DNA of 54,220 nucleotides from positions 1-54,220 of IMG/VR virus record IMGVR_UViG_3300020222_000028; one strand, given 5' to 3'. Each line of letters begins with the position of its first letter. Positions within the stretch are counted from its first letter, which is position 1. The translations under genes and the position numbers were made by a program. The notes under the pieces are model-generated. The model saw only the letters and a program-made list of their open reading frames with translations. It was not told where the DNA came from and searched no databases. Of the stretch, positions 8,401-46,081 are shown in pieces. The stretch is from a virus.

Positions 8401-11400
8401 TCAGACTAAGGGTATTCATGCATTCTTACCATACCAAGAATATACTGGAAGAAACCTTATCAACTTCCCATCTGCACACGGATTCTCAGATAACGACATC
8501 GTTACCTATTCAAATGGTGGGGGAACAAGTATTGCTGGTCTAACTCAGAATGCTGCAATATCAGTCTCTGCTATTACATCAAATTCTACTACATTTACAG
8601 TAACTACATCTTCAACTACATGGGCTGCAGGAGATGGTGTTGTAATCAATAATGTAACTCCTTCTGCTTATAACGGTAGTTGGACGATTGCTAGCACAAA
8701 CGGAAGTACTTCATTCACTGTTAACAGCACAGCAAACCCAGGATCAGCAACTGCTTTCGGAACGGCAACAAAAGGATATTTTGTTGAGCTTAGTACGCCA
8801 TTGAAGTTTGGTCTTAAGCAGACTGCAGCTGGTTCGCGTATAGATTTGGAAAGTTTTGGTTCTGGTTCTGCTCATGTCTTCACTGAAACTGTTTCCAATT
8901 CAACTGCCGATACTATTTTGAAAGTAAACCACGGATTAACTCCTGGAACAGAACTTGTCTATGATGATGGAGGTAACACAACGATTGGCGGTCTTACTGA
9001 CTTACAGACATATTATGTCAAAGAAGTTATTGGACTTGATAGATTTACTCTTGCTTCAGAACCAAATGGCGTAAGAGTTAACTTATCATCTGCTGGTACA
9101 GGAACACAGTCCTTTAATGTTCAGACTGCTGGTTCATTTGATGGTGCATATGATATTAGCAATGTTATTTCTCCAACTGAATATAGCTTCTCTGTATCGT
9201 CGCAAGTTCCAAAGATTCAACGAAGCGTAAACCCAACAACTCAGCTTAACACAACTACTGACCTGTTCACAATCACAAACCACCGTTTTGCTACTGGTAC
9301 TGCTGTTGAGTATAGCAATAACGGTAATACAAGCATTGGCGGTTTAACAAATAATGCAACTTATTTTGTTATTCGTACTGATAAAGATACATTCAAACTT
9401 GCGGATACTTATGTTGATGCACTAGCTGGAAACGTCAGAGATATTACTAATGCTGGTTCTGGAACTTCACACGTTTTTACATCATTCAGTGTTGTTGGCG
9501 AAGTTGTTGGAACTGGAACAGTTGCTGTATCAAGTGGTCTTTCAACTATAACTGGTGCTGGAACTACATTCCTTTCCACATTCCGTGTTGGCGATACCAT
9601 CATAATCAACCTAGGAAATGGATCAGTTCTTCAATCAGAGATCATCGCAATCAAGGACAACTTATCACTTACGATTGCGACAGCAGCTTCAACAACTTCT
9701 TCAAATCTAGCATATCTGATTCCTTCTGGTCTGTATGTACGTCCTGGTTGCTACAGTCTACATAGACCATTTGACGGTGGTGTTGAAATCAATGCTGGTT
9801 ATGGTGCTGACTCTCAGATCGTTCGTCAGACTCGTAGATACTTCCGTTATCAGTCAGGTAAAGGTCTTGTCTGTCAGTTTGCGATTAACTTCAATCCATC
9901 TATTGAGATTCAGTCAATCACTGCATCTGGTAATGTTGCTACAGTGTCTACTCTACTTCCACATGGTCTTATTCCTACTAAGACATTTATTGTTGAAGAA
10001 GCTGAAGTTACTTCTGGTGTGAATCACTACAATGGATCTTTTTCTGTTCAATCTGTTCTTTCTAGTACCACATTTACTTATGTGATGGCGGGAGAACCAG
10101 ATGACGCATCTGCAAACGGATTCCCCAAACTACAGGTTAGAAACTGGAATGGTGCTGCTATTCGCTGTGGTATGAATGACTTCCAAAATGGTATGTTCTG
10201 GGAGTATGATGGAACCACTCTGTATGCTGTGAGAAGAAACAGCACTCAGCAGGTTGCTGGTACAATCAACGCAACTAGGAATAGCTCTGTTATCATTGGA
10301 AACGGAACTCGTTTCGTAGAACAACTTTCTCCTGGTGACTATGTTGTTATTCGCGGTCAATCATACAAGATTACTAGTATCGCATCTAATACTACAATGT
10401 ATGTTTCGCCTTCATATAAGGGAGTAACTACATCTCGTGCAGTTATTACCAAAACTATTGATGTCAAAGTTCCACAAAATGAGTTTAGTATTGATAAATG
10501 TGATGGAACAGGTCCATCTGGTTATGTATTGGATATTGGCAGGATTCAGATGACCTATATTGATTACTCTTGGTACGGTGCAGGTAAGATTCGCTTTGGA
10601 TTCAAGGACCAAGATGGTCATGTTAAGTATGTTCACGAGTTCAAGCACAACAACAAAGAGTATGAAGCGTATCTACGTTCTGGTAACTTACCTGCTCGTT
10701 ATGAGATTGTTAACACAGGAACTCCACAGTTTGCTCCTTCACTAGCACACTGGGGTACTACGGTTGCTATGGATGGTAAGTATGAAGATGACGGTTCATA
10801 CCTCTTCACTGGTTCGTCCTCACTCCTTTCGTTCTCTGGTAGCTCAACGACAACTAACGGTGATACTACTGGCAACTACTTATATGTAAATACTGATGGT
10901 TCTACAAGTACGATTCCAACTACGTTTACAAACACAACAACGATTGGTACTGCATCAGTTAATGTTGTAACAAACAGAATCACTCTGGCAAACCATGGAT
11001 TTGCTGCAAACTCGTTGGTTCAATATCAAAACGGTGGTGGTGCTGGCATTAACGGATTAACTAATGGTGCGTACTACTTTGTAATCTCACCACAAACGAA
11101 TGACTTCCAACTATCCGCAACTAAAAGTGGTAGTGTTATTGATATCACCAGTACAGGAAACGCCGCTCAGTTCTTCCGCCATAACTTCAGATTTGCAGTA
11201 ACTCTTACTAACATTCCTGGTTATGGCAATAAACTGATTCATAGATTCACCACTGACGCTTCTGGTTTTGCTGCTATTGGATCTATTTCGTTCGGTACTC
11301 AAATCAAAGCAACTGCCATTAACTCAGTAACTGCAACTGCTGGTGGTCAGGCAAGAGTATATCGTGTTCTGAATGCTGGTAGCGGTAAAGCATCTATTGA

Positions 11401-12028
11401 CTTCTTCTTCACTGCTGATGCTGCTTCACAAACAACCAACCCACCTGGAACCACTGGATTCATTCCTGCTTCAACATCTTATGGCAGTGTTCAGCATACC
11501 GTTGGTACTGATACTCCAATCCCACCATTGATTCCACTACTTTCGATTCGTCTTGCGCCTTCTGTTGATAGTGGTCTTGTTGGTCTAACTGGTGTCCGTG
11601 ATATTATCAACCGAATGCAGTTGGATTTACAAACTGTAGGTCTACTCACAACGCACGACGTTGAGATTCGTTTGATTCTGAATGGTTCTCTAAACCAGTA
11701 TAACTGGCAGAACATCGGTAGACCTTCTCTGTGTCAGTTTATTTCTCACGTTAATGATGATACTGTAACTGGTGGTACTATTGTGTTTACCTTCCGTGCT
11801 ACTGGCGGATCTACAGAAGCTAGCGGTAAGAAGTTGGCAAACGTATTCAATCAGTCTATTGATAACCTACTATCACTAGGTAACTCAATCCTAGGTGGAG
11901 ATGGTGTATTCCCTGACGGACCTGACGTTCTAACGGTTGCTATCGCGCCATTGAACACTTCTGGTATTACTGTTAACTCACCGTTCTCCCTATCATCTAG
12001 GATCACTTGGTCTGAATCACAAGCATAA
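5408..12028 (+). CDS. Giant virion structural protein with several repeat families (2,206 residues)
   Basis: The N-terminal ~150 residues are non-repetitive ([11 protein letters not shown]...). From about residue 165 a module recurs about eight times: a start like NHGF/SHGL-x-G-x-V, then G-x-x-x-I-x-GL and a YYV-x6-F-x-L ending (near residues 170, 345, 930, 1020, 1175, 1280, 1520 and 1860). Two copies of another module lie near residues 524-591 and 795-874, each carrying [12 protein letters not shown] or [21 protein letters not shown] module lies near residue 1085. Such modules are common in marine-phage structural proteins. The C-terminal ~200 residues are again unique. There are no membrane segments or enzyme motifs. 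It probably builds a long beta-rich appendage in one transcript with the orphan fibre-head gene. Its exact place in the virion is unknown. Confidence 0.8.
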
Positions 12029-15144: not shown

Positions 15145-18100
15145 ATGGCTGAATTTAGACTAGGTAGATTAAAGTTCAACTGGACTGGAGCATGGCAACC
15201 AAACCGTGCTTATGTACTGGACGATATCATCTCCTTCAAAGGCAACACCTATGTCTGTGTTGTCAATCACACTTCCGCTGCTAGCCAGGAAGCATGGGAA
15301 GATACAGATCTTAACGCAAGTCCAGCGGCAAAATGGGAACTCTATGTTCCTGGTGTCAGAAACGCTGGTGCGTGGACTCCAAATACCTTCTACGCAAGTC
15401 AGGATCTTGTGAGGTATGGTGGCAACATTTATATCTGTAAAGATAATCATACTTCCCCTTCTAACGAGAATCTTTTTTACCTAACCAACTTTGCTGGTAA
15501 CTGGGATCTGTTTCTTTATGGAAATGAAAATAAAGGAACTTGGCAAGCAACTACTTGGTATAAAGTCAACGATTTAGTAAAATACGGAAATAATATTTAT
15601 CTCTGTAATATTGGTCACACTTCGACAACAGCATTTGATATTACTAAGTTTAGTATATTTTTAGAAGCAGTTAAGTTTGAAGATAGTTGGAGCAATGACG
15701 TAGAATATCAACCAGGAGATATTGTTCTCTTTGGTGGTTATTCATACACCGCAAAAACTATTAATATAAACAAACAACCAAACAACTATGTAAACACTGA
15801 TTGGGAAGTAATCAGTGTCGGTTTTGATGCCAAGGGTATCTACAATTCAGCAACCATTTATGTTCCTGGAGATGTTGTAAGATATGGTGGTAATACTTTT
15901 GTAAAACTATTAACTAGTGTTGCTGGTGTTGCTCCCTCAGAATCTGGAGATGGTGCTCTCAAGTGGAGTTTGATTTCCGAAGGTCTTTCATATAAAAATG
16001 AGTGGGATAATCTGACCACTTATCAAAAGAATGATGTTGTAACATCAGCTTCGAGTACTTATGTTAGTATTGCATACAATAACACTGGAAGAGACCCTGG
16101 AACTAATGACGCAGATGGGTTCTGGGCAGTTGTTGCACGCGGAGATGAAGAGAGTACTATTACTGTTAAAGGTGATTTACTTTATAGAGCAACTGCTACC
16201 AATGCAAGATTACCAATCGGCAATCCTGGTCAAATCTTGTATGCCACAGAAAATGGCATTCCTGGATGGGGAAATGCAAAGACTAGAAAAGTATACTTCG
16301 TAACTCTAGATGGGGAAGATGATTTTTCTGAGGGTTATGGTGGTTCTATCGGCAGATCGTTTAGAACTGTAAAATATGCTACACAGATTGCCGCACAAGA
16401 AGGATGCGATGAGCAGAATCCTGCAACCATTTATGTAAAAGCTGGTGTTTATGACGAGCAGTGTCCCATCACTGTGCCACCTTATTGCTCTGTCGTTGGT
16501 GATGACAGTAGAGGAACTATTATTGAGCCTGGTCCTGGGGTCAGTCATATTCAAAAACTAATCATTGCTTCTACTTGTTTATTAAAACCAGGAGATACTT
16601 TAACGGTAAATACTCTTGCTGGCGCAACAAGAACTGCTAGAGTTCTTCACTTTGCTGATACAGACGCAACTCCTGTTGGTTCTGGGGAAGCAAATAGAAA
16701 GAAAATGGTTTATGTTGAAAGAATCGCAGGTGGTCCTATCATTGACACTGACACTTTCCTAAATGGAACTAACTTAGGTACTGCTCCTCAAGTAGATATA
16801 GTTTCGGTAGAAAATCTAGATAACACAAAAGCAACATTATTCTTCCTTTCGGAAGGTGTAATGCTAAAAGATTTAGTATTTAATAACCCAGATTTAGATG
16901 CAGGTTTTATCAAACCAGATATCACTGGATTAACGATCGAAGAACAGATTACAGATCAACTTGCAGATATTACAAAATCCCAAGTTGGATTTGTGTTCTT
17001 CAGAATCAATCCATTCCTCGTTTCACAAACAATCATTAAGAGTCCTTATATCTATAGTTGTGCATCTTATTGTCACAAAGGTATAGGTGCTATTGTTGAT
17101 GGTTCGGTTAACGAAGGAAAAGATCACCCTTCACACTTTGCTTCAGGTCACCAAAGTTTACTATTTGGTAACGTAACTCAATTCCCAGAAGACGGTGTTG
17201 CTATTTGGTGTAAAGATAACGGAAACTCTGAGATTGTTTCTTGCTTCACTTATTATTCTCATATTGGTTACGCTTGCTCTGGTGGCGCTCGTATGCGTTC
17301 ACTCGGAGGAAACAACTCATGGGGTAACTTCGGATGTTCCGCTAGAGGATTTGACCCAACCGAAATTCCTTTAGAAGCAACTATTCGTGGTACTGAGTTA
17401 AACTTCTACAATGCAGCAACAACTGCTGCAGAAACAGCAACTGTTAATGGTAACTTAGTATTAGGGACCATTACTCAGTCAGGAAAAGTGAATGGAGATT
17501 TCCAAGTTGGTTCTATTATTTCCAACGAAGGAGTTGCAAATGATACTGGTATTACTGACGTTGTTGGTAATGGAACAACTGCTACGGTTTCTTTTAATAC
17601 TAAACCATTCAATCCTTTCGTGATTGGCAAAAAGATTACTATCAGTGGTGTATCAAACAATGCTTTCAACGGAACTTTCACTATTACTGGTGTAGTAGGA
17701 ACTCAGGGTGTTATTACTGGTGTTCAGTTTGCTTCGACCACAACTGCTACTTCTTTAGGTTCAGGTGGTACTGTAAGACCTGCATTAGGAAAAGCAAGAG
17801 TTCTTTATGTTCTTGCTGGTAATGATTATACTAAAGTTCTCATTGAACCTATTACTGGATTTATTGGCGATGGACAAAGATGTGCTCAGATTACTGGAGC
17901 AGATCCAAACAATCCACCTCCAGTAAGTATTCCAGCAGCATCAACTGTTATTGCAAATAGTCAGTATCCTGCTGCTGACAATAGTACTAGTGCTGCAAAC
18001 CGAGCAACAAGAGGAGCTAAGTTTGCTGTTATTAATCTACCAGAAAAACCAAAGATTACTAGTGCTGTAACTTTTGCCAACAGTGGTGATAATATCAACT

Positions 18101-20466
18101 ATGTTGTTCAAGAGATTGAAAATTATAGCGATGGTCCATCTGCATCATTCAAAACTCTTGACGTAACTAGAACAGCAAGTTTACAAAACAGTGTTGTTAC
18201 TATTCCAATCGCTAAAACTGGTACTTTCCCAAATGGCGTTAATGTAGCAGCAGAGACTCATGTTGGTGGAACTGATATTTCTCTTTACAGTTTATTAACT
18301 GGCGCCAACAATCAAGTAGTTATTGATAATCCTGGAGATTTGTTAACTTCAACTTCAGCAACCAACATCAATATTCTAAATCCAGAAAGAGTAACTAATG
18401 CTTTACAAACTTACAATACTGCATCAACGACTCTATATCTATTAGTTGGAAATGAGTTGATGCTACCATCGACGGTTACCGATGATGCATTTAATAGCTA
18501 TGTAACTGTTACTAGAGGTCAAGAAGGTACGATTGCACAAGAGCACGCAGACCAAGATTCCCCCAACTTCCCACAAAATGCTGTTGTTAGATTTGTAGTT
18601 AAGTACACTCCAGTTACTACACTTCGTCAAGATGCAAATAATCTATCTAATGTTTTAACCTACAGTACATTAACTGGTAATGGAGGTTTACCTGTATTCT
18701 CATTTACAGATCAAGAAGGTTCACCAACAAAAACTATTGTTGAGGGAGATTTTATTAAGATTGATAACGAGTTTTTCCGAGTTGATTTGAAGACTTCGGC
18801 AAATCCAGGAACTGCTATTCTCACATTTTTCCCAGTAAAACTAATACCCGAAGCAAGTGGAAATGAGATACGGATTCGTTATCGCTACAGTCAGATTCGC
18901 CTAACTGGTCATGACATGCTTGAGATTGGAACTGGTGGTATTGCTACCACTAACTTCCCAGATGAGCCACTTGTCCGACCAGATGAAACTAGGGAAACTA
19001 ACTTTATTGCTCCTGCTAGAATTTATTATGTAACTACCAATCAAGATGGAAACTTTAAGGTCGGTCAGTTCTTTAGGATTGACCAAGCAACTGGTAAGTC
19101 AACTATTGATGCTTCAACCTTTGACCTAACTGGTTTATCAAACTTACAGTTTGCTTTACCAGATGGAACTAAAGTTGGTGTAGAAATTAATAAGTTTGAT
19201 GCAGATGGTACTTTAGGTGGTAGTGAAACTAGTGATTCATTTGTACCTACCCAAAAGGCAGTTAAAACCTATGTAGATACTAACTTTATTAACTCAAATG
19301 ATGATGTTACGGTTGGTTCCGAGCTATTAAGCAGGAACTTAACTGTAAACGGTAATACTAATATTACTGGCGATACAATCATTGGTGGAAGTTTACAGGT
19401 TAGTGGTACTACTACCAGTGTTAATACTACAGAACTTGTGGTAGAAGATGTTAATATTACTCTTGCTGCTGGTAATGTTACGGGAGACTCTGCTATTCAG
19501 GGTGCTGGTTTAACTATCAAAGGAACTATTGATAAAACTATTACATATGATGGTCTTGGTGATCTTGGAAGATTTGCAGTTAGCGAAAATGTTCTTCTTG
19601 CTCCTGGCAAATATATTGCTTCAAAACCAGCATTGGCAGATGGTACTGGAGTTTTAGCAACGGAAGAAATTATGATCGATACTAATGTCAGTGGATCCAC
19701 TGGTATTGGTCTTGTATTCCCAACTATTGCTCAGTTAGATATTGGTAATTCTTCAACTGCTATTACTCTTGGTGGTACATCTGGAACTACTTCAGTAAGA
19801 AATAGTTTGGTTCTTCCATCTGGAACCACTACACTAGCTCCAATGAGGTTTACTCCAACAGGTGCTGCTCTACTCACAACCGCACTGCAAGGTGGTTTTG
19901 AATATAACCAGATTGCATTCTATGCAACCCCAACTACTGAAAGTGGAAGAGGAATCATTCTCGCTCCACATATCCTGAGAGCTGCTGCAGATTTTGCACA
20001 AACAGGCACAACTAACACTGTTAGAAACGTATTCAGTCCAACTACGGCGGATGCCGCTCCCCTCAGAGCAAATACATTATACAGATTTAGAGGTGTTTAT
20101 TATCTATCTAAATCAACCACAACATCTGGTACTTGGAACTTACTGTTTACTTTCACAAACACGCCATCTAACTTCCGTTACACTGCTATTGGAGCAAACT
20201 CAGCCTCATCAACGGCCGCCTTGATTATGAACACAACTGCTCAAACATCAACGGCAGTTACTCAAAATGTAACTAATAATCAGGATTGCGCCATACGGTT
20301 TGAAGGTTACTTTGTATCAAACGCAACAACTGGTGGAACATTAACTCCTCAGTTTAACAAGAGCGATGCGGCCAACGCAACTGTAACTACTCGTATTAAC
20401 TCATACTTTGAGATTCAAGCTATGGGTGCTGCCAACCCATCGATTATCGCGGGTAACTGGAGTTGA
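15145..20466 (+). CDS. Giant fibre-like protein: aromatic repeats, beta-helix and fibre tip (1,773 residues)
   Basis: Residues 1-330 hold about seven repeats with a W-x6-Y-x3-D-x-V-x-Y/F-x-G-x2-Y pattern, often followed by HTS, resembling small chitin- or sugar-binding modules. Near residues 385-480 comes a pectin-lyase-like start (KVYFVTLDGEDDF, SFRTVKYA, IYVKAGVYDE, VVGDD) and then a long right-handed-beta-helix-like region with SHIGYACSGGARMRSLGG near 704-721. An SGVSNNAFNG module lies near residue 832. From about residue 1413 a domain (LQVSGTTTSVNTTELVV) and the C-terminus (LAPMRFTPTGAALLTT, GGFEYN) match the fibre-like protein at 12060. This looks like a host-surface polysaccharide-binding, possibly depolymerising, tail protein. 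Enzyme activity is not shown by the sequence. Confidence 0.78.
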   Translation: MAEFRLGRLKFNWTGAWQPNRAYVLDDIISFKGNTYVCVVNHTSAASQEAWEDTDLNASPAAKWELYVPGVRNAGAWTPNTFYASQDLVRYGGNIYICKDNHTSPSNENLFYLTNFAGNWDLFLYGNENKGTWQATTWYKVNDLVKYGNNIYLCNIGHTSTTAFDITKFSIFLEAVKFEDSWSNDVEYQPGDIVLFGGYSYTAKTININKQPNNYVNTDWEVISVGFDAKGIYNSATIYVPGDVVRYGGNTFVKLLTSVAGVAPSESGDGALKWSLISEGLSYKNEWDNLTTYQKNDVVTSASSTYVSIAYNNTGRDPGTNDADGFWAVVARGDEESTITVKGDLLYRATATNARLPIGNPGQILYATENGIPGWGNAKTRKVYFVTLDGEDDFSEGYGGSIGRSFRTVKYATQIAAQEGCDEQNPATIYVKAGVYDEQCPITVPPYCSVVGDDSRGTIIEPGPGVSHIQKLIIASTCLLKPGDTLTVNTLAGATRTARVLHFADTDATPVGSGEANRKKMVYVERIAGGPIIDTDTFLNGTNLGTAPQVDIVSVENLDNTKATLFFLSEGVMLKDLVFNNPDLDAGFIKPDITGLTIEEQITDQLADITKSQVGFVFFRINPFLVSQTIIKSPYIYSCASYCHKGIGAIVDGSVNEGKDHPSHFASGHQSLLFGNVTQFPEDGVAIWCKDNGNSEIVSCFTYYSHIGYACSGGARMRSLGGNNSWGNFGCSARGFDPTEIPLEATIRGTELNFYNAATTAAETATVNGNLVLGTITQSGKVNGDFQVGSIISNEGVANDTGITDVVGNGTTATVSFNTKPFNPFVIGKKITISGVSNNAFNGTFTITGVVGTQGVITGVQFASTTTATSLGSGGTVRPALGKARVLYVLAGNDYTKVLIEPITGFIGDGQRCAQITGADPNNPPPVSIPAASTVIANSQYPAADNSTSAANRATRGAKFAVINLPEKPKITSAVTFANSGDNINYVVQEIENYSDGPSASFKTLDVTRTASLQNSVVTIPIAKTGTFPNGVNVAAETHVGGTDISLYSLLTGANNQVVIDNPGDLLTSTSATNINILNPERVTNALQTYNTASTTLYLLVGNELMLPSTVTDDAFNSYVTVTRGQEGTIAQEHADQDSPNFPQNAVVRFVVKYTPVTTLRQDANNLSNVLTYSTLTGNGGLPVFSFTDQEGSPTKTIVEGDFIKIDNEFFRVDLKTSANPGTAILTFFPVKLIPEASGNEIRIRYRYSQIRLTGHDMLEIGTGGIATTNFPDEPLVRPDETRETNFIAPARIYYVTTNQDGNFKVGQFFRIDQATGKSTIDASTFDLTGLSNLQFALPDGTKVGVEINKFDADGTLGGSETSDSFVPTQKAVKTYVDTNFINSNDDVTVGSELLSRNLTVNGNTNITGDTIIGGSLQVSGTTTSVNTTELVVEDVNITLAAGNVTGDSAIQGAGLTIKGTIDKTITYDGLGDLGRFAVSENVLLAPGKYIASKPALADGTGVLATEEIMIDTNVSGSTGIGLVFPTIAQLDIGNSSTAITLGGTSGTTSVRNSLVLPSGTTTLAPMRFTPTGAALLTTALQGGFEYNQIAFYATPTTESGRGIILAPHILRAAADFAQTGTTNTVRNVFSPTTADAAPLRANTLYRFRGVYYLSKSTTTSGTWNLLFTFTNTPSNFRYTAIGANSASSTAALIMNTTAQTSTAVTQNVTNNQDCAIRFEGYFVSNATTGGTLTPQFNKSDAANATVTTRINSYFEIQAMGAANPSIIAGNWS

Positions 20467-37049: not shown

Positions 37050-37565
37050 ATGCTAACAGTCGAAAAGCCAATGGGTAGACGCACAACCAAGGAAAACTAT
37101 GTTAATAACCGAGAGTTCCTCGATGCCCTGATGGTGTATCGACAGCAGGTTTCTGCAGCTAAAAAAGCAGATCTACCCAAACCTAAAGTTCCCAACTATA
37201 TTGGGGAATGTTTTTTAAAGATTGCTACCCACCTATCATACAAACCTAACTTTGTCAACTACATGTTTAGGGATGATATGATCTGTGATGGGATCGAAAA
37301 CTGTCTTCAGTATATCGATAACTTTAATCCAGAGAAGTCAACCAATCCATTTGCTTACTTCACTCAGATTATCTATTATGCTTTCTTGCGTAGGATTCAA
37401 CGTGAGAAAAAGCAACTAGAAATCAAAACTAAGATTCTTGAAAAGTCTGGGTTTGATGAAGTTTTGTATACAGACAGTTACAGCGGTGACATGGCTGGTT
37501 ATAATAGCAGTTACTCTGATATGAATAGTATCAAAGAATCCCTTGAAATGAGATCTAAACGATGA
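37050..37565 (+). CDS. gp55: Late-transcription sigma factor gp55
   Basis: gp55 directs host RNA polymerase to TATAAATA late promoters, many of which lie in this window. The family match is in KENYVNNREFLDALMVYRQ (T4 has KYNYVNNKELLQAI), MICDGIENCLQYIDNFNP and NPFAYFTQIIYYAFLRRIQREKK, which correspond to sigma region 2 and the T4 pattern MIADGIEASIKG...[21 protein letters not shown]. I chose ATG 37050 because ACGGA sits eight bases upstream and transcription should start near 37033. An in-frame ATG at 37041 would leave almost no leader. The stop overlaps gene 47 by four bases. Confidence 0.93.
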   Translation: MLTVEKPMGRRTTKENYVNNREFLDALMVYRQQVSAAKKADLPKPKVPNYIGECFLKIATHLSYKPNFVNYMFRDDMICDGIENCLQYIDNFNPEKSTNPFAYFTQIIYYAFLRRIQREKKQLEIKTKILEKSGFDEVLYTDSYSGDMAGYNSSYSDMNSIKESLEMRSKR

Positions 37566-38611
37566 CAGTAGCATTGATTACAGACCAACATCTAGACGGG
37601 AGAAAGGGAAGTGTTGCGTTTTGGGAATACTTCAAAAAATTCTATGACGAGGTATTCTTTCCTACACTTGAGAAACATGGAATCAAAACTGTTATTGACC
37701 TCGGTGACACGTTTGATAATCGTAAGGGGATTGATTTTAATGTTTGGAGCAGGGTGCGTCAACATTATTTTCAACGCCTTGAAGACATGGGTATCTTCGT
37801 TCACATGATTCTTGGCAATCACTGTACCTATTATAAGAATACCAACGAGATTAACTCACCCGATTTGCTGCTGAAAGATTTTAGTAATATTGAAATCTAC
37901 TCTCGCCCAGAGACAGTAATGATTGATGGCACTAAGATTCTTATGATGCCATGGATTAACTCTTCTAACATGGAAGAGACAATGGCTTGGATTAATGATA
38001 CCAGTGCTGAGATTGCCATGGGTCATTTAGAGCTGAATGGTTTTGAAGTTACTCCTGGTATGAAGATGGAGCATGGCATGGATCCTTCTATCTTCAAAAA
38101 ATTCAAACAAGTATTCTCTGGGCACTTTCATCACAAATCTACCAGAGGTAACATTACATACTTAGGTAACCCCTATCAAATGTTTTGGAATGATTATAAA
38201 GACGAGCGAGGATTTCATCTCTATGAGCCAAAGACAAATAAACTCAAGCGGGTCAAGAACCCTTATGAGATTTTCCAGAAAATCTATTATAATGATTCTA
38301 CTAGTTCTCATCTCAGCTTCGATACCTGTGAGTGTGCAAATACTTTTGTCAAGATTATTGTAGAAGATAAAAAAGATTACTTGGCATTTGAAAAGTTCGT
38401 TGACGAAGTATTTGCTAAGCAACCACATGACGTAAAGATTATCGAGACATTAGTGAACGATGCATTTGTTGAAGATGATGAAGTCACTGAGGTTAAAGAT
38501 ACATTAACTCTTCTCAACGAATATATTGATGAGGTAGAGTTAACCGTTGACAGAAACAAACTTAAGAGTATCATGAAGACACTATATATTGAAAGCTGTG
38601 AGGTAGTATAA
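37562..38611 (+). CDS. gp47: Recombination nuclease subunit gp47 (Mre11-like)
   Basis: gp47 pairs with gp46 to resect DNA ends for recombination-dependent replication and repair. Metallophosphoesterase motifs are Asp8-x-His10 (ITDQHLDG), GDTFDNR (Asp49, Asn53 region), GNHC (85-88), MGHLELNG, and SGHFHHKS (two-His motif near residue 183). The 349-residue length fits the T4 protein. It begins with an ATGA overlap from gene 55. A small DUF3110-like gene starts directly after its stop and separates it from 46. Confidence 0.95.
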   Translation: MTVALITDQHLDGRKGSVAFWEYFKKFYDEVFFPTLEKHGIKTVIDLGDTFDNRKGIDFNVWSRVRQHYFQRLEDMGIFVHMILGNHCTYYKNTNEINSPDLLLKDFSNIEIYSRPETVMIDGTKILMMPWINSSNMEETMAWINDTSAEIAMGHLELNGFEVTPGMKMEHGMDPSIFKKFKQVFSGHFHHKSTRGNITYLGNPYQMFWNDYKDERGFHLYEPKTNKLKRVKNPYEIFQKIYYNDSTSSHLSFDTCECANTFVKIIVEDKKDYLAFEKFVDEVFAKQPHDVKIIETLVNDAFVEDDEVTEVKDTLTLLNEYIDEVELTVDRNKLKSIMKTLYIESCEVV

Positions 38612-38899
38612 ATGTTTCTGATCACTCTCCAAGAACAACCAGACGGTGTTTACTCGGTGCTTGACGAAGAGGGCGATCATGTAGTATACTTCTTTCGGGA
38701 GGAAGATGATGCCGAAAGGTATCTTGGTTTGTTGGAAGCAAACAGCACAGAAGAAAATCTTCCTCCTTTAATGACATACGAAATAGATGCCAAAGCTGGT
38801 ATCGGAATGTGTGAGATGAGAAACATGAAGTATCTCATCGTTGAACCCGACGACATTATTGTTCCCCCTCATTACTATGATAATCTTCAAGACGATTAA
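38612..38899 (+). CDS. DUF3110-like small protein between 47 and 46 (95 residues)
   Basis: The protein starts directly after the gene 47 stop. The pattern MFLITLQEQPDGVYSVLDEEGDHVVYFFREEDDAERYLGLLEAN is that of DUF3110, a family I know from cyanobacteria and their phages. It is small and very acidic, and ends IIVPPHYYDNLQDD. There are no catalytic motifs. The last 23 bases overlap the start of gene 46. A role tied to the 47/46 nuclease is suggested only by its place inside that operon. Confidence 0.72.
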   Translation: MFLITLQEQPDGVYSVLDEEGDHVVYFFREEDDAERYLGLLEANSTEENLPPLMTYEIDAKAGIGMCEMRNMKYLIVEPDDIIVPPHYYDNLQDD

Positions 38900-40601
38900 A
38901 TGGAAAAACTTTCTATCTACTGGCAATCAGTTTACTGAAATTTCGTTAACTGACAGTAAAAGTAGTTTGATTGTGGGGGCAAATGGTGCTGGCAAGTCAA
39001 CCATTCTCGATGCCCTCACTTTTGCTTTGTTTGGTAAACCATTTAGAAAGATTAACAAACCACAGCTACTCAACTCTATCAATCAATCAGATTGTGTTGT
39101 GGAAGTTAACTTTGATGTTGGTAGAAATAAATATACAGTAACTCGTGGTATTAAACCTAACAAGTTTGAAATACAACAGAATGGTGTGCTGCTTGATCAA
39201 GATGCATCTGCTGTAGATCAGCAAAAACATTTTGAGCAAACCATTCTCAAAATGAACTACAAATCATTTACTCAGATTGTGGTGCTAGGTTCATCTACCT
39301 TTGTGCCTTTCATGCGTCTTCCCCTGGCAGCTCGTAGAGAAATCATCGAAGACATCCTTGACATTCAAATCTTCTCAACAATGAATGTCAATCTAAAAGA
39401 AAAGATTAAAGTAATCAATGATGAGTTGAAAGACCACGAATATAAACTGTCTTTGGTCAAAGAGAAGATTGACATGCAAAAGCAGTTTATGCTTGACATT
39501 GAAAAGAAGAATAAAGAAGACATTCAGGAAAAAGAGAATCGTAAAGACACCCTATTAAAAGAGGCACTAGATTATGAATCGGAAATCCTCAATAACGACA
39601 CGGAAATCAACGCTAAGACCACTGCCGTTTCAGACACGCAGACTCTTAAAACAACGATATCTAAGATCACTTCGATCAAAGAGAAACTGTCAACCAAGCG
39701 AAAGTCACACGCAAAAGAGAAGAAATTCTTTGAGGAGAATGATGCTTGCCCAACATGCGGTCAGAGTATCGCAGAGCATTTTAAACAAGAAAAGATCACG
39801 ATTCTCTCGGATAAACTTGCTGAGGTGGAGAAAGGCGTGTCTGATTTGGGACAACAACTTTCAGATCTCCAAAGTAAAGAAGATACCTTTATTCTTTTGA
39901 TTGATGAAATAAACGAACTCAATCAAAAAAATAGACAACTCAATAATGAAATTAAGTCACTTCATAAACGAATTGAAGAACTGGACGACGACATCAGAAA
40001 ACTCAGGGATTCAGATGTCAATCAACGGGAGCAGTTTTCAATTCTTAAATCCCTTAGCGAAGACGGGAAGCGAGTCCAAGAAACAATTTCTGAAACAAAA
40101 GAAGAAAAAGACTGCTTACTCACAGCGGCACAACTTCTCAAAGATTCGGGCATCAAAACGCGCATCATCAAAAAATACTTACCGACGATGAATAAACTCA
40201 TCAACGATTACCTAGAAAAAATGGAGTTTTCTGCAAGTTTTATGCTGGATGATAACTTTGAAGAAGTAATCAAATCACGTTACCGAGATGAATTTAGTTA
40301 TGAATCTTTTTCTGAAGGTGAAAAAGCTAGAATTGATATTGCTCTATTGCTTACTTGGCGTAGTGTTGCTAAACTTAAGAATAGCGTGGATACTAATCTT
40401 TTAATCTTAGATGAAATCTTTGATGGGTCACTTGACCAATCTGGCAATAGCGACCTTGGATGGATTCTAAGAAGCTTTGATGATAAAACAAATGTGTTTG
40501 TTATTTCTCATCGAGAAAATATGGCGGATAAATTTGAAAGATGCTTAAGATTTGAGAAGCATAAAAATTTCTCATACGTCACTGACGAAATATTTGATTG
40601 A
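38877..40601 (+). CDS. gp46: Recombination nuclease subunit gp46 (Rad50-like ATPase)
   Basis: The start at ATG 38877 gives MIIFKTIKWKNFLSTGN, the usual beginning of gp46. Upstream in-frame codons (a TTG at 38841) lie inside the previous gene. It is an SMC/Rad50-type ATPase partner of gp47. Features are Walker A GANGAGKS (residues 34-41), long Lys/Glu-rich coiled coils flanking the zinc hook C291-P-T-C294, the signature FSEGEKARIDIAL near residues 481-493, and Walker B LLILDE with Asp512-Glu513, followed by an ISHRE His-loop. It has 574 residues, and a terminator-like hairpin lies directly downstream. Confidence 0.95.
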   Translation: MIIFKTIKWKNFLSTGNQFTEISLTDSKSSLIVGANGAGKSTILDALTFALFGKPFRKINKPQLLNSINQSDCVVEVNFDVGRNKYTVTRGIKPNKFEIQQNGVLLDQDASAVDQQKHFEQTILKMNYKSFTQIVVLGSSTFVPFMRLPLAARREIIEDILDIQIFSTMNVNLKEKIKVINDELKDHEYKLSLVKEKIDMQKQFMLDIEKKNKEDIQEKENRKDTLLKEALDYESEILNNDTEINAKTTAVSDTQTLKTTISKITSIKEKLSTKRKSHAKEKKFFEENDACPTCGQSIAEHFKQEKITILSDKLAEVEKGVSDLGQQLSDLQSKEDTFILLIDEINELNQKNRQLNNEIKSLHKRIEELDDDIRKLRDSDVNQREQFSILKSLSEDGKRVQETISETKEEKDCLLTAAQLLKDSGIKTRIIKKYLPTMNKLINDYLEKMEFSASFMLDDNFEEVIKSRYRDEFSYESFSEGEKARIDIALLLTWRSVAKLKNSVDTNLLILDEIFDGSLDQSGNSDLGWILRSFDDKTNVFVISHRENMADKFERCLRFEKHKNFSYVTDEIFD

Positions 40602-40606
40602 CTTAT

Positions 40607-40629
40607 AGGGGGTTGCTTCGGCACCCCCT
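40607..40629 (+). terminator. Terminator-like hairpin after gene 46
   Basis: The stem AGGGGGT-GC with GC-ACCCCCT (nine pairs, one bulged T) is closed by a TTCG tetraloop. Only three T residues follow, so termination may be partial. Confidence 0.6.
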
Positions 40630-40641
40630 TTGCCGTATAGT
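40613..40641 (+). promoter_or_regulatory. Possible host-type promoter of the metalloprotease/VWA gene
   Basis: TTGCTT (40613-40618, inside the hairpin), a 17-base spacer and TATAGT (40636-40641) lie 24 bases before the ATG at 40665. The -35 box is weak (three of six). Confidence 0.45.
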
Positions 40642-40664: not shown

Positions 40665-42803
40665 ATGCTGAACATGGAAGTCAAGGGCAATCTTGCCCGA
40701 CTCCTCGCTACCGAAAACCTCATCGTTGAGCATCGCAAGGTTGAGACCGCCATGTTCAATGTGAAAGACCGTGTGCTCACGCTGCCTATGTGGGATGTGG
40801 CATCGCCCAACGTCTACGATATGCTCGTGGGGCATGAGGTGGGTCATGCTCTGTATACGCCTGACAAGTGGGGCGCGGACTATGGTATCCCCCAATCCTA
40901 TCTCAATGTCTGCGAAGATGCTCGCATTGAGAAAATGATGAAGCGTAAGTTTCCTGGTCTCGCTCGCAACTTCTACACTGGATACAAAGAGTTGCATGAT
41001 GCTGACTTCTTTGAAGTTGGTGAGCGCAGCATGGATTCCTATCAACTGATTGACCGTATCAATCTTTACTTTAAGATTGGCGTTCATGCTGGTGAGGTAT
41101 TCACTTGGAAACCTGAAGAAAAAGTTCTGGTTGATGAACTGGAAGTTGCAGAAACTTTTGATGAAGTTGTAGAAGTTGCTCGTAAGATTCTGCAGTATAC
41201 GCAGGAGCAGCAGAAGATTGAGGTGGAAATGGATACTGCCAACTCTACTCAAGGTGGGGGTGATTCTACCCCAGATGAGGGTGATAGTTCTGAAGGTCAG
41301 GGTGAGCAACCTCAGCAAGTTTCTGGTAACGGCAACCAAACTCAGGGTGGTGCTGATGCAGACCAACCACAGGATTCTGGCGATAGTTCTACTGCTGGTC
41401 AATCTGGTGGCACTGAGAACTTTGATTCTGAAACTGACAAGGCATTCAGCGAGAAGCAGAAGCAACTGTCTTCTAATCATTACTCGCAAGAACTTCACTA
41501 CATTGAGTTGCCGCCACTGAATGTTGAGACCTTTGTGATTCCTAACAAGCAGGTGATGGAAGATTGCGGTGTTACTTATGGTGAGCAGGGAGCATCTCTT
41601 TTCATTGAAGTAGATAGTTCGTATGCTAAGTTTCGTGCAGAAGCTCAGCGTGAGGTGAACTATCTGGTCAAAGAGTTTGAGATGCGTAAATCTGCTGACC
41701 AGTATGCTCGTGCATCTACTGCCAAGACTGGTATCCTTGACACTCAGAAACTCCACACCTACAAGTGGAATGAAGATGTGTTTAAGAAGATTAACATCGT
41801 GCCTGACGGTAAGAATCACGGTCTGATTTTTATTCTTGACTGGTCTGGTTCTATGGGTAACTGCCTGGTGGATACTGTTAAGCAACTGCTGAACCTCGCA
41901 TGGTTCTGTAAGAAAGTGCAGATTCCTTTTGACATCTATGCTTTCACTAATGATTACTGGGGTGCTCGTAACTACGATTACTCTTCTATGACTCGCACTA
42001 AATCTAAGAAGCACCACAAAGAAGTGCCTGGTTATGTTTCCATCTACGAAAACTTCCGTCTGCTGAATATGGTCAGCAGCAACGGTCGTAATGGTAAAGA
42101 CCTTGAAGCTCAACTGAAGAACTTCTGGCGTCTTGCTAACTGTGAAGGTGGGTATCGTTCTTACTGCAACCCTCCTGGTTACGGTCTGTCTGGCACTCCT
42201 CTCCATGAGGCAGCGATTTCTCTGACTGCTGTTATCCCTGACTTTCAGAAGCGTAACAAGGTGCAGAAAACTAACGTGGTTATTCTGACTGACGGCGAAT
42301 CTCAATCTATTAACTACATTGTTGAGAATCCTTATCGTCACACCCGTGTAGGTTACAACCATGTTGGCAATGATTGTGTACTGCGTGACCGTAAAACTGG
42401 GCGTGTTTATCCTCGCTTTGAGGGCGGATACTATGGTTGCTCTGATAAAATCACCAAAGTGTTTCTGCAGAATGTGCGTGACCGTTTCCCCGATGTCAAT
42501 CTTATTGGTATTCGTCTGATTAGTGGTCGTCATCTTCACAGTGCTTATAGCAATGGTGACTGTAAGATTCCTTATAGTGACATTCAAAAGCAGTGGCAGA
42601 AAACTAAATCTGCTGAGCTGGTTGATCATCTTGGTTATCAATCTCTTTATCTGATGGCACTTGATGGGTTGTCTGCTACCACTGAGTTTGAAGTGGAAGA
42701 TGATGCAACCAATAAGGAGATTGGCAACGCTTTCAAAAAAGCACTTGCCAAGAAAAGTGTCAATAAGAAGATGCTGACCTCCTTCGCCTCACTCATCAGT
42801 TAA
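40665..42803 (+). CDS. HEXXH metallopeptidase-like plus VWA/MIDAS protein, CobT-like (712 residues)
   Basis: The N-terminal domain has His57-Glu-Val-Gly-His61 (VGHEVGHALYTP) and NVCEDARIEK (81-90), a likely third metal ligand; together they form a gluzincin-type zinc site. Residues about 190-255 are a Gly/Ser/Gln/Asp/Glu-rich linker. The C-terminal VWA domain has a complete MIDAS: Asp392-x-Ser-x-Ser396 (DWSGSMG), Thr511 (SGTPLHEA) and Asp543 (ILTDGE). This layout (acidic linker plus VWA) is that of CobT and other partners of MoxR/CobS ATPases, and such an ATPase is the next gene. Cyanophage homologues are, I believe, annotated as peptidases. Arginine codons are almost all CGN. Whether it cleaves protein or assists metal insertion is not known. 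Confidence 0.82.
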   Translation: MLNMEVKGNLARLLATENLIVEHRKVETAMFNVKDRVLTLPMWDVASPNVYDMLVGHEVGHALYTPDKWGADYGIPQSYLNVCEDARIEKMMKRKFPGLARNFYTGYKELHDADFFEVGERSMDSYQLIDRINLYFKIGVHAGEVFTWKPEEKVLVDELEVAETFDEVVEVARKILQYTQEQQKIEVEMDTANSTQGGGDSTPDEGDSSEGQGEQPQQVSGNGNQTQGGADADQPQDSGDSSTAGQSGGTENFDSETDKAFSEKQKQLSSNHYSQELHYIELPPLNVETFVIPNKQVMEDCGVTYGEQGASLFIEVDSSYAKFRAEAQREVNYLVKEFEMRKSADQYARASTAKTGILDTQKLHTYKWNEDVFKKINIVPDGKNHGLIFILDWSGSMGNCLVDTVKQLLNLAWFCKKVQIPFDIYAFTNDYWGARNYDYSSMTRTKSKKHHKEVPGYVSIYENFRLLNMVSSNGRNGKDLEAQLKNFWRLANCEGGYRSYCNPPGYGLSGTPLHEAAISLTAVIPDFQKRNKVQKTNVVILTDGESQSINYIVENPYRHTRVGYNHVGNDCVLRDRKTGRVYPRFEGGYYGCSDKITKVFLQNVRDRFPDVNLIGIRLISGRHLHSAYSNGDCKIPYSDIQKQWQKTKSAELVDHLGYQSLYLMALDGLSATTEFEVEDDATNKEIGNAFKKALAKKSVNKKMLTSFASLIS

Positions 42804-42814
42804 TCTAATCACTC

Positions 42815-42830
42815 GGGGGCTTGTGCCCCC
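42815..42830 (+). terminator. Terminator-like hairpin overlapping the cobS promoter
   Basis: A perfect 6-bp stem (GGGGGC with GCCCCC) and TTGT loop are followed by ACCCTTTTT. The loop and 3' arm also contain the -35 hexamer of the next promoter. Confidence 0.65.
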
Positions 42831-42849
42831 ACCCTTTTTCCTCTATAAT
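42821..42849 (+). promoter_or_regulatory. Host-type promoter of the CobS-like gene
   Basis: TTGTGC (42821-42826), a 17-base spacer and a perfect TATAAT (42844-42849) lie 27 bases before the ATG at 42876. The -35 lies in the loop and arm of the hairpin. Confidence 0.68.
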
Positions 42850-42875
42850 ACTTACATACAAAACGACCCCACCCC

Positions 42876-43973
42876 ATGAAAAACTTTGAAGTCGCCCCCA
42901 TCATCGAGCGTTTCGGTCAGGTTGTGACTGCCGCTGACCTTCGCACCTATGCCGATGAAACTGGCACTACCTATCAAACTCTCACTAAGAAACTGGAATC
43001 GTTCAAGGTGCAGCGTGGTCTGTGGCATCTGACTGCTGTAGAGCAACTGGAACAAACCTATAATCAACCTGCTGTTGAACCTGTGGTAGAGAAAGTCGAA
43101 AACCTTATCCCCGATAAAGATGATAACTTCGTCAGCTTTGGTAACTTCACTGATATTAAAAAGATTATTTCTTCTCGTCAGTATTACCCTGTGTTCATCA
43201 CTGGTCTGTCTGGTAATGGTAAAACTTTCGGTGTAGAACAAGCTTGTGCCCAACTGAAGCGTGAACTGATTCGTGTCAACATCACTATTGAAACTGACGA
43301 GGATGACCTGATTGGTGGTTTCCGTCTTATCAACGGTGAAACTGTGTGGCACGATGGTCCTGTGGTTCAAGCACTGAATCGTGGCGCTATCCTGCTGCTG
43401 GATGAGATTGACCTTGCCTCTAACAAAATCCTCTGCCTGCAATCTGTGCTTGAGGGTAAGGGTGTCTTCCTTAAGAAGATTGGTAAGTATGTCAAACCCG
43501 CTGATGGTTTCAATGTGTTTGCAACCGCCAACACTAAGGGTAAAGGTTCTGATGATGGTCGCTTCATCGGCACTAACGTTCTCAACGAAGCCTTCCTTGA
43601 GCGTTTCCCTGTAACTTTTGAACAGGCATATCCTTCTGTCAAGGTTGAAACTGCCATTCTGAAGAAAGCTGCAGAGTCGCTGAATGCTTACGATGCTGAG
43701 TTTGTTGAGCGTCTGGTAGCATGGGCAGAGATTATTCGTAAGACCTTCTACGATGGTGGTGTTGACGAAATCATTTCTACTCGCCGCCTTGTGCATATCA
43801 TCCGTGCCTTCAGCATTTTCGGCAAGCGCAAGAAAGCCATTGATGTTTGTGTCGCTCGCTTTGATGACGAAACCAAGCAATCGTTCATGGAACTCTATTC
43901 CAAGATTGATGCTTCTATTGACACTACCAAAGATGAACCCGAACTGACTGTTGAAACTGATGTTACCTTCTGA
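42876..43973 (+). CDS. cobS: CobS/MoxR-like AAA+ ATPase
   Basis: In bacteria CobS is the AAA+ subunit of cobaltochelatase; MoxR relatives remodel or activate partners with VWA domains. Motifs are Walker A GLSGNGKT (residues 110-117), DEDDLIGGFR (141-150, typical of this AAA+ group), Walker B LLLDEID (173-179), sensor ATANT with Asn219, and arginine finger LERF (Arg243). Residues 1-85 form a separate N-terminal part (DLRTYADETGTTYQTLTKKL) that may recognise a partner. cobS is a familiar cyanophage auxiliary gene. Here it directly follows a VWA protein of CobT layout, so the two probably act together. Codon use is CGN-rich like its neighbour. Confidence 0.88.
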   Translation: MKNFEVAPIIERFGQVVTAADLRTYADETGTTYQTLTKKLESFKVQRGLWHLTAVEQLEQTYNQPAVEPVVEKVENLIPDKDDNFVSFGNFTDIKKIISSRQYYPVFITGLSGNGKTFGVEQACAQLKRELIRVNITIETDEDDLIGGFRLINGETVWHDGPVVQALNRGAILLLDEIDLASNKILCLQSVLEGKGVFLKKIGKYVKPADGFNVFATANTKGKGSDDGRFIGTNVLNEAFLERFPVTFEQAYPSVKVETAILKKAAESLNAYDAEFVERLVAWAEIIRKTFYDGGVDEIISTRRLVHIIRAFSIFGKRKKAIDVCVARFDDETKQSFMELYSKIDASIDTTKDEPELTVETDVTF

Positions 43974-44172: not shown

Positions 44173-44481
44173 ATGCAATGGAAATACAATGAAGACAAAA
44201 TCCTCAAAGAAGTTGAGGAGTATGTTGTGAGCACTTACGGTAGTCACTACTGTGGTCATAATGATGCCTATAATGACATTCAAACGATTGATTTGATGGC
44301 AGCAAAAGACCTGGCACCAGATTTTTGTCAGGCAAACATTCTCAAATACGGTAGTCGTTATGGTGACAAAGATGGTCATAACAAACGAGACCTTCTCAAA
44401 GTGATTCACTATGCTATGCTGCTGCTTCACTTTGATAGACACTATAGTCGCATGGAAAACGGTCTTGGAGAGTTTAAATGA
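44173..44481 (+). CDS. DUF3310-like small protein (102 residues)
   Basis: The pattern NDIQTIDLMAAKDLAPDFCQ, then ANILKYGSRYGDKDG and RDLLKVIHYAMLLLHF fits DUF3310, a small phage family sometimes described as nucleotide-kinase-like. The assignment is by pattern; I see no Walker motif. The start is 35 bases downstream of an extended -10 promoter. The stop overlaps the clamp gene by four bases (ATGA), so translation is probably coupled to gp45. Confidence 0.65.
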   Translation: MQWKYNEDKILKEVEEYVVSTYGSHYCGHNDAYNDIQTIDLMAAKDLAPDFCQANILKYGSRYGDKDGHNKRDLLKVIHYAMLLLHFDRHYSRMENGLGEFK

Positions 44482-45140
44482 GCACAGTCGCACTATCTCA
44501 AACCACACTGAATATTCTAAAGAACTTCGCCACGATTAATAATGGCATCATTATCAAAAAGGGTAACACTCTACGAACCATTTCCAACGCTGAGAATATC
44601 CTGGCTGCGGCAAATGTGGAAGAATCTTTTCCTCAAACCTTTGCTATCTACGACCTCAACCAGTTTATTGCTGGTCTGTCTTTGTTTGACAATCCTTCTT
44701 TGGTGTTTGACAATAATGACTATGTTACTATCAAAGATGGGCGTAGTCGTGTCAAATATTATTTCTCAGACCCTGAGATTACACTCAAAACTGCACCAGA
44801 CAAATCGGTAAAGTATCCTGGTTCTGATATTCAGTTTACTCTGTCTGCCTCTGATATCGCCGCCATTCAAAAAGCAACTGGTATCTACAAGCTTCCTGAT
44901 TTAAATATCAGTTCCGATGAAGAGATTGTTCTTTCAGTTCGTGACAATGAAATCACAACGTCAAACACTTATGATATCATTGTTCCTGGAACATTTGAAG
45001 GTTCCCATTCTCTTGACCTGAAAGTAGAAAACATTCGTTTGCTTCAGGGTGATTATCAAGTGGGTGTTTCCAAGCATCACATTTCTAAATGGAAGCATCT
45101 GACACTTGACCTTACTTATTACATTGCGCTTGAACCTTGA
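44478..45140 (+). CDS. gp45: Sliding clamp gp45
   Basis: gp45 is the trimeric DNA clamp for polymerase gp43 and, in T4, the mobile activator of late transcription with gp55. The 220-residue sequence aligns with T4 gp45: LNILKNFATINNGIIIKKG (T4 LLKNFATINSGIMLKSG), FAIYDLNQFIAGLSLF (T4 VAIYDLNGFLGILSL), and C-terminal YQVGVSKHHISKWKH then YYIALEP (T4 YVVALE). It overlaps the upstream gene by four bases and its stop shares a base with the gene 44 ATG. Confidence 0.96.
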   Translation: MSTVALSQTTLNILKNFATINNGIIIKKGNTLRTISNAENILAAANVEESFPQTFAIYDLNQFIAGLSLFDNPSLVFDNNDYVTIKDGRSRVKYYFSDPEITLKTAPDKSVKYPGSDIQFTLSASDIAAIQKATGIYKLPDLNISSDEEIVLSVRDNEITTSNTYDIIVPGTFEGSHSLDLKVENIRLLQGDYQVGVSKHHISKWKHLTLDLTYYIALEP

Positions 45141-46081
45141 TGAAAAACTTCCTGTGGGTGGAGGAATACAGACCTCATAAGATTGAAGATTGTATCCTCC
45201 CTACTTCGTTAAAGAAAGTATTTACTGGATTCATTGAGCAGGGTGAGATTTCTAATCTCTTGCTCTCTGGTCCTCCTGGCGTTGGTAAAACTACCGTTGC
45301 CAAAGCATTGTGTGAGCAACTCGAACTCAGTTACATTGTTATCAATGGTTCGGATGAAGGTCGTTTTCTTGATACAATCCGAACTCGTGTTAAACAGTTT
45401 GCTTCTACTATCAGTTTGACTGGTGGTGGTAAGCACAAGGTTGTGATTATTGATGAGGCAGATAACACCACCCATGATGTTCAGCTCTCGCTGCGAGCAT
45501 TCGTAGAAGAGTTTCATAGCAACTGTCGCTTCATCTTCACCTGCAACTTCATCAACAAAATCGTTGAACCGCTGCACTCACGCTGTACGGTCGTTGATTT
45601 CCGCATTAAGGCAGGCGAACAGCAGAAGTTACAGGCGCAGTTCTTTGAGCGCCTACAGGGCATCCTAGACGCCTCTGGCATGGCGTATGAGGACAAGGTG
45701 CTGGTCAAACTGATTCAGCGTTACTACCCCGACTGGCGACGCCTGCTGAACGAAGCGCAGCGTCACTCTGCCAGCGGTGCCCTTGACTCTGCTGTGCTCT
45801 GTGACATTGCTGATGTAAACACAGACCAGTTGATGCGAGCGATGAAGGGTAAGGAATATAATGTTGTGCGTCAGTGGGTGGTTGATAACATGGATAGTGA
45901 CCCTAACACTATCATTCGTAAAATCTACAACTCTTTGACTGAGGTGCTTGAAGGTTCTTCTATTCCTCCTGCTGTGTTGGTGCTTGCTAAGTATCAATAT
46001 CAGATTGCGTTCGTAGCTGATCAAGAGATTAATCTTCTCGCTTGTCTAACTGAAATTATGGTGGAGTGTAAGTTTAAATGA
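45140..46081 (+). CDS. gp44: Clamp loader large subunit gp44
   Basis: gp44 is the AAA+ subunit that opens the gp45 clamp. I chose ATG 45140 (MKNFLWVEEYRPHKIEDC); it overlaps the clamp stop as TGATG, and the TTG three bases earlier is unneeded. Motifs are Walker A GPPGVGKT (residues 44-51), Walker B IIDEAD (103-108), sensor TCNF (134-137) and arginine finger SRC (147-149). The 313-residue length fits T4 (319). In other T4-like phages gene 62 follows directly; here a restriction-modification-like pair intervenes. The stop overlaps the next start by four bases. Confidence 0.95.
   Translation: MKNFLWVEEYRPHKIEDCILPTSLKKVFTGFIEQGEISNLLLSGPPGVGKTTVAKALCEQLELSYIVINGSDEGRFLDTIRTRVKQFASTISLTGGGKHKVVIIDEADNTTHDVQLSLRAFVEEFHSNCRFIFTCNFINKIVEPLHSRCTVVDFRIKAGEQQKLQAQFFERLQGILDASGMAYEDKVLVKLIQRYYPDWRRLLNEAQRHSASGALDSAVLCDIADVNTDQLMRAMKGKEYNVVRQWVVDNMDSDPNTIIRKIYNSLTEVLEGSSIPPAVLVLAKYQYQIAFVADQEINLLACLTEIMVECKFK

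Follow-up and report, generated by a model that had tools for sequence, protein, structure and literature searches.

An obligate AAA+/vWA gene pair with an N-terminal HExxH domain in the replication region of a T4-like phage genome fragment

The window analysed here, 54,220 nucleotides of DNA from IMG/VR virus record IMGVR_UViG_3300020222_000028 (positions 1 to 54,220), is a 54-kb piece of the genome of a T4-like (Kyanoviridae-type) phage, in which two co-directed genes encode a vWA protein and then a CobS-like ATPase. In cyanophages, cobS is widely counted as a B12 auxiliary metabolic gene. Established by our analysis are the domain order of the two proteins, their invariant sites, their obligate pairing, their synteny, their non-orthology to cobaltochelatase CobST, and the homology of the vWA protein's N-terminal domain to that of CobT via intermediates. 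The reading that this is not a lone B12 gene is well supported, and we see about an even prospect that the two proteins would form one AAA+/vWA/gluzincin target-remodelling machine tied to DNA metabolism. The pair and its parts are as follows, MIDAS standing for metal ion-dependent adhesion site and pLDDT for predicted local distance difference test score.

40665..42803, + strand: predicted vWA co-chaperone with an N-terminal HExxH (gluzincin-like) domain, CobT-like, 712 residues (phrog_459 'peptidase')
40665..41243, + strand: N-terminal domain, residues 1-193, modelled as a three-strand beta region, an HExxH helix (48-64), a Glu helix (77-95) and further helices
40833..40847, + strand: HExxH motif (H57 E58 V G H61), with H, E and H invariant in both alignments
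40914..40916, + strand: E84, presumed third metal ligand, within N81-x-x-E84-D85-x-R87-I-E89
41241..41429, + strand: low-complexity linker, residues ~193-255, predicted disordered (pLDDT and composition)
41811..42674, + strand: vWA domain, residues ~383-670 (fold search, and profile match to plasmid and phage vWA domains)
41838..41852, + strand: MIDAS D392-x-S394-x-S396, invariant in 28 sequences
42195..42197, + strand: MIDAS T511, invariant in 28 sequences
42291..42293, + strand: MIDAS D543, invariant in 28 sequences
42297..42440, + strand: four-strand insertion after the D543 strand, residues ~545-592 (secondary structure of the model)
42876..43973, + strand: CobS-like MoxR/AAA_5 ATPase, 365 residues (phrog_249)
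43203..43226, + strand: Walker A, GLSGNGKT (residues 110-117)
43392..43406, + strand: Walker B, LLLDE (residues 173-177)

The first-pass annotation of this DNA had described two adjacent genes, the first encoding a protein with an HExxH site, a likely glutamate ligand and a full MIDAS, and that description held: the open reading frames (ORFs) span 40665-42803 (712 residues) and 42876-43973 (365 residues), and H57, E58, H61, E84, D392, S394, S396, T511 and D543 were each found at the position claimed. Both products have full-length PHROG profile matches, the vWA protein to phrog_459 ('peptidase', E 4e-244) and the ATPase to phrog_249 ('porphyrin biosynthesis', i.e., CobS; E 4e-131). H57, E58, H61, E84 and the five MIDAS residues are all invariant in an alignment of 28 diverse relatives, which takes in a Stenotrophomonas phage and a pelagiphage and reaches down to 27-32% identity. 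Because the residues are unchanged across sequences as distant as these, their presence is not a matter of chance. When 56 viral and cellular N-terminal domains were aligned, H57, E58, H61 and N81 were again invariant, and E84, D85, R87 and E89 were at least 90% conserved.

A direct Pfam scan of the vWA protein returned no matches, and neither the protein nor its profile retrieved any PDB entry by sequence. The full-length model was used for a fold search, which matched vWA domains only, including the NorD vWA domain and the human MDN1 MIDAS, and was thus uninformative on the N-terminal domain, so this domain was modelled alone. The resulting AlphaFold2 model (pLDDT 88.7, predicted template modelling score (pTM) 0.85) puts the HExxH motif on the helix spanning residues 48-64 and E84 on the one spanning 77-95. 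A PDB fold search with it ranked minigluzincins (selecase, probability 0.99 and 0.97; jannalysin) and the ArdC zincin highest, and Wss1 and PprI further down. Neither the solved CobT N-terminal domain structures (9uka chain G, 21vu chain H) nor full-length NorD came up in the fold library. The modelled helix order, HExxH and then E84, together with the gluzincin fold matches, agrees with a clustering of HExxH and E84. The sequence mark of a gluzincin, a conserved HExxH with a downstream Glu ligand, is also present.

The region that follows the N-terminal domain had been called a CobT-type acidic linker. It is indeed of low complexity and predicted to be disordered, with pLDDT below 50 for residues 192-251 of the full-length model, but it is acidic only loosely: among residues 190-262, Asp and Glu account for 15/73 (~20%) and Gly, Ser, Thr, Gln and Asn for 46/73. 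Within the vWA domain, the four-strand insertion (~545-592) is, by analogy, a candidate 'finger' like that of NorD (PMC9976466, PMC13036017).

The ATPase scores 70.6 bits against AAA_5 (Pfam cut-off 22), and sensor 1 N219, the Arg finger R243 and sensor 2 R303 are conserved. The sequence marks of a MoxR AAA+/vWA pair are found, namely intact Walker A and B motifs, sensors and Arg finger, an adjoining vWA protein with a MIDAS, and conserved pairing. The relation to cobaltochelatase was addressed with the NCBIfam equivalog models and a tree. Against CobS (TIGR01650), the ATPase scores 75.7 bits for a cut-off of 558.55, and against CobT (TIGR01651), the vWA protein scores 8.2 bits for a cut-off of 759. 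A maximum-likelihood tree built from 44 ATPases puts the window ATPase on a long branch within a 100/99 clade with those of Kyanoviridae-type, Stenotrophomonas and Pelagibacter phages, and 17 bacterial CobS sequences form a separate 100/99 clade that excludes it. As several other rows in this tree are also long-branched, we did not use its deep clade order. Staphylococcus phage matches to the ATPase were not counted as pairs, as no vWA protein with a MIDAS is encoded directly downstream of them. Since both equivalog scores lie below their cut-offs and the ATPase stands outside the CobS clade, the pair is, judged by sequence, not orthologous to cobaltochelatase CobST. This bears out the earlier suggestion of an AAA+/vWA module in place of a lone cobS, and its corollary, that cobS would not be seen without the vWA partner, was borne out as well: of 50,697 phage records, the vWA protein has matches in 463 and the ATPase, at a coverage of 80% or more of its length, in 458, and the genus counts agree between the two genes (365 Synechococcus, 61 Cyanophage and 24 Prochlorococcus). 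In IMG/VR, both genes are present at 127 of 152 loci, the remaining 25 single-gene loci all end at a contig edge, and a real absence of one partner was found at none of the 152.

The position of the pair is as constant as its composition. At IMG/VR loci with enough room, gp46 lies upstream of it in 97/99 and gp45 downstream in 112/113. Its surroundings in the window are:

37562-38611: gp47, upstream of the pair
38880..40601, + strand: gp46 (SbcC/Rad50-type), fixed upstream neighbour (upstream in 97/99 IMG/VR loci with room)
44478..46081, + strand: gp45 (sliding clamp) and gp44 (clamp loader), constant neighbours on the downstream side (profile matches)

The upstream side comprises the gp55 late sigma factor, gp47 and gp46, and the downstream side DUF3310, gp45, gp44, a DNA methylase, gp62, RegA, Hsp20, DNA polymerase and UvsX. 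The DUF3310 gene (44173-44481), between the ATPase and gp45, encodes a small DUF3310/nucleotide-kinase-like protein. The virion half of the window contains two very large ORFs, at 5408-12028 (2206 residues) and 15145-20466 (1773 residues), the former matching virion structural and tail fibre PHROGs over parts only. A PADLOC search for a defence role gave zero matches.

Expression signals also distinguish the two halves of the window. The cyanophage late promoter, NATAAATA (PMC2984593), occurs within 100 bp upstream of 12/24 virion-half genes versus 1/19 replication-half genes (Fisher p 0.002), and none was found within 100 bp upstream of either gene of the pair. In cultured cyanomyoviruses, the nucleic-acid genes are middle genes (PMC7238727); in the literature on expression timing, we found no gene-level statement for cobS or the peptidase gene. 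There is a GC-rich hairpin ahead of each of the two genes, GGGGGTTGCTTCGGCACCCCC at 40608-40628 before the vWA gene (the feature spans 40608-40641) and GGGGGCTTGTGCCCCC at 42815-42830 before the ATPase gene (spanning 42815-42849), and a TATAGT or TATAAT hexamer follows each hairpin, as if there were a terminator-promoter junction per gene. A sigma-70 scan of the region found promoter-like sites no more often than expected by chance.

More distant relatives were located as well. HExxH-vWA proteins with MoxR partners were found in Rhizobium, SSU5-type Klebsiella, Vibrio, Gordonia and Roseobacter phages, and close relatives are present in Salmonella and Escherichia phages. The cyanophage vWA protein itself has no plasmid match at blast sensitivity, and an HExxH-vWA homologue turned up in 1,221 plasmid records, most of which are conjugative; all five plasmid vWA proteins inspected carry HExxH. 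The gene order in IncC plasmids is MoxR-x-ssb-bet-exo-DUF3150-vWA, and other plasmids have ssb-recT-exo-x-MoxR-DUF3150-vWA or recT-exo-x-MoxR-DUF3150-vWA. An Acinetobacter plasmid has vWA-ATPase-x-x-dnaE, Klebsiella and Rhizobium phages have vWA-ATPase and then dnaE, and in further relatives the pair lies near a primase or helicase. That genes of DNA replication and recombination recur beside such proteins, as read from gene order, is suggestive. We found no functional study of the IncC/SXT block in the literature at title and abstract level.

The first-pass annotation had also taken a peptidase-like domain to be no part of CobT, and on this point our results differ. A genome scan with the phage profile retrieved cellular vWA proteins bearing HExxH, EDxRIE and MIDAS motifs, and PF06213, the Pfam model of the CobT N-terminal domain, matches five such HExxH proteins over its curated cut-off (E 2e-17 to 5e-7). 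In profile comparisons, the phage N-terminal domain matched that of the cellular HExxH proteins (99.5%, E 2e-23), which in turn matched that of CobT (96%, E 3e-9). The direct comparison of phage and CobT domains was weak (E 0.017), which is why the HExxH intermediates were needed for the link; the vWA domains of the phage protein and CobT were likewise linked through intermediates. The PF06213 matches and the chained comparisons indicate that this domain also occurs in CobT, there stripped of its metal ligands. True CobT of alphaproteobacteria keeps the ExxRxE helix (EQARVEA) and is missing the HExxH. A single Pseudovibrio genome encodes both a true CobT with no HExxH and an HExxH-bearing paralogue. 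The simplest reading of these sequences, with the polarity set without an outgroup, is that the CobT N-terminal domain would be a degenerate copy of the HExxH domain. Such a reading would reconcile two published accounts: Iyer et al. (2021, PMC7824862) described a MoxR and metallopeptidase-vWA pair in group 2.2 jumbo phages and assigned it to virion assembly, and Liu (2021, PMC8651126) called the adjacent cyanophage pair cobST, with cobT said to be 'mistakenly annotated as a peptidase'.

The closest mechanistic guide is NorQD, in which the vWA domain sits on a MoxR ring and inserts a finger into its pore, subunit movements powered by ATP turn the vWA domain relative to the N-terminal domain, and the MIDAS is required for action on the target (PMC9976466, PMC13036017). 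The phage pair holds elements of this plan together with an invariant gluzincin-type site, and for this reason we propose an ATP-driven remodelling machine; that it forms a ring, transmits force, binds metal and cuts, and what it acts on, are our inferences. The MoxR-type ATPase, probably a hexameric ring by homology, would drive its partner, in which a flexible linker joins the N-terminal gluzincin-type HExxH domain to the vWA domain and its intact MIDAS. If the pair works like NorQD and CobST, its vWA domain might be turned inside the ATPase pore, with the MIDAS gripping an acidic patch on the target and the N-terminal domain acting at a second point of the same target. The N-terminal domain is probably metal-binding, because its metal site is kept invariant, and may then either cleave the target or make a metal-dependent contact with it. 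The target would most likely be a viral or host component of the machinery for DNA replication, recombination or nucleotides, and less likely a corrin or a virion protein.

Several observations weigh against this proposal, which rests on sequence, predicted models and analogy. All fold matches of the N-terminal domain have E-values of 0.09 or worse, and they therefore back a gluzincin fold without proving it. The gene-neighbour association amounts to about four lineages and is a raw count, not set against random gene positions; no replication gene is nearby in a Pseudomonas IncP plasmid or in Gordonia phage Amore2. In Pseudomonas phage Nican01 (Nickievirus), the pair lies beside dnaE and its vWA protein has no HExxH; as the pair persists there without the motif, the metal site appears dispensable in Nickievirus.

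The alternative that we would least readily set aside, though we think it unlikely, is a metal-insertion chaperone, in which the HExxH site would bind or deliver metal and the motor would open up the metalloenzyme it targets, in the way NorQD acts on nitric oxide reductase, with no proteolysis. The best-studied MoxR-vWA pairs, NorQD and CobST, do serve metal insertion (PMC13036017, PMC8651126), and CobT N-terminal domains function without HExxH. Nevertheless, no candidate metalloenzyme gene is fixed beside the phage pair, and the gluzincin-like helix order and the invariant catalytic-type Glu (E58) exceed the needs of a metal site.

Ranking below it, and in our view improbable, is a hijacking of cobaltochelatase, in which phage CobS/CobT-like proteins would join host CobN and raise cobalamin, for example for a B12-dependent ribonucleotide reductase (PMC8651126). 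In the picocyanobacterial host family, CobN is over its cut-off in 31/41 genomes and CobT in 0/41, so that a CobT partner slot would be vacant and such a hijack possible in principle, and the phage proteins are homologous to CobS and, through intermediates, to CobT over both domains. Caulobacter vibrioides, a control genome, has CobT over cut-off and is not listed for the CobN model, a possible CobST without CobN. Against hijacking stand the equivalog scores far under cut-off, the place of the ATPase outside the CobS clade, and a metal site that is invariant in the phage proteins and missing from true CobT. Related HExxH pairs are moreover found in SSU5-type phages, E. coli phages included, and in Enterobacteriaceae plasmids. 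E. coli is not known to make the corrin ring de novo.

Least of all do we favour a virion-maturation chaperone-peptidase that assembles and trims structural proteins, as proposed for jumbo-phage relatives by analogy with a MoxR-vWA pair required for an archaeal virus tail (PMC7824862): in its favour, the HExxH is conserved, but the pair lies within the replication block between gp46 and gp45, does not have the late promoter motif that goes with structural genes, and has relatives on conjugative plasmids, which make no virion.

To return to the remodelling machine in DNA metabolism, if this reading is true, then the B12 reading is wrong for a core gene of a very abundant ocean virus group. A bolder form of it, which we hold to be distinctly doubtful, is that one AAA+-powered metalloprotease machine is common to cyanophages, phage-plasmids and IncC-type plasmids and works on DNA during replication or recombination, where, much as Wss1/SPRTN do together with p97, it might clear protein roadblocks or remodel the replisome; CobST would be a side branch that lost the protease site. 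In outline, modules of this kind were already known, as a MoxR-vWA-metallopeptidase (PMC7824862) and as adjacent cobST in cyanophages (PMC8651126). What our analysis adds are counts for the obligate pairing in cyanophages, the link to the CobT N-terminal domain, the relatives on plasmids and phage-plasmids, and the setting among replication genes. The HExxH-CobT link gives a testable origin for the CobT N-terminal domain, and connects the proposed phage machine with an uncharacterised gene block of IncC plasmids, which are clinically widespread.

Four known systems can be compared with the phage pair. NorQ/NorD (PMC9976466, PMC13036017; PDB 9qh6, 9qhe) likewise pairs a MoxR ATPase, there a ring, with a partner made of an N-terminal domain, a linker and a vWA domain with a MIDAS, and the NorD vWA domain is among the fold matches of the phage protein; its target, unlike the one proposed here, is a membrane nitric oxide reductase. 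In cobaltochelatase CobS/CobT (TIGR01650/TIGR01651; PF06213, PF11775; PDB 9uka), an AAA+ protein also adjoins a protein with an N-terminal domain, linker and vWA domain, and the domains are homologous to those of the phage pair through intermediates. CobT has no HExxH, whereas the phage vWA protein has one, and in alphaproteobacterial loci cobS is upstream of cobT, whereas in the phage the vWA gene precedes the ATPase gene. The IncC-type plasmid block (MoxR/DUF3150/HExxH-vWA) resembles the pair in having a CbbQ-type ATPase and an HExxH...EDxRIE vWA protein near recombination genes, and differs in its extra DUF3150 gene and in an ATPase that belongs to another clade. Lastly, in the group 2.2 jumbo-phage pair (PMC7824862), which we liken to ours by its description, a MoxR AAA+ gene adjoins a vWA gene with an N-terminal metallopeptidase domain; cyanophages, in contrast, are placed in group 2.1 in that work, and the cyanophage pair is tied to gp46 and gp45 and has no late promoter motif.

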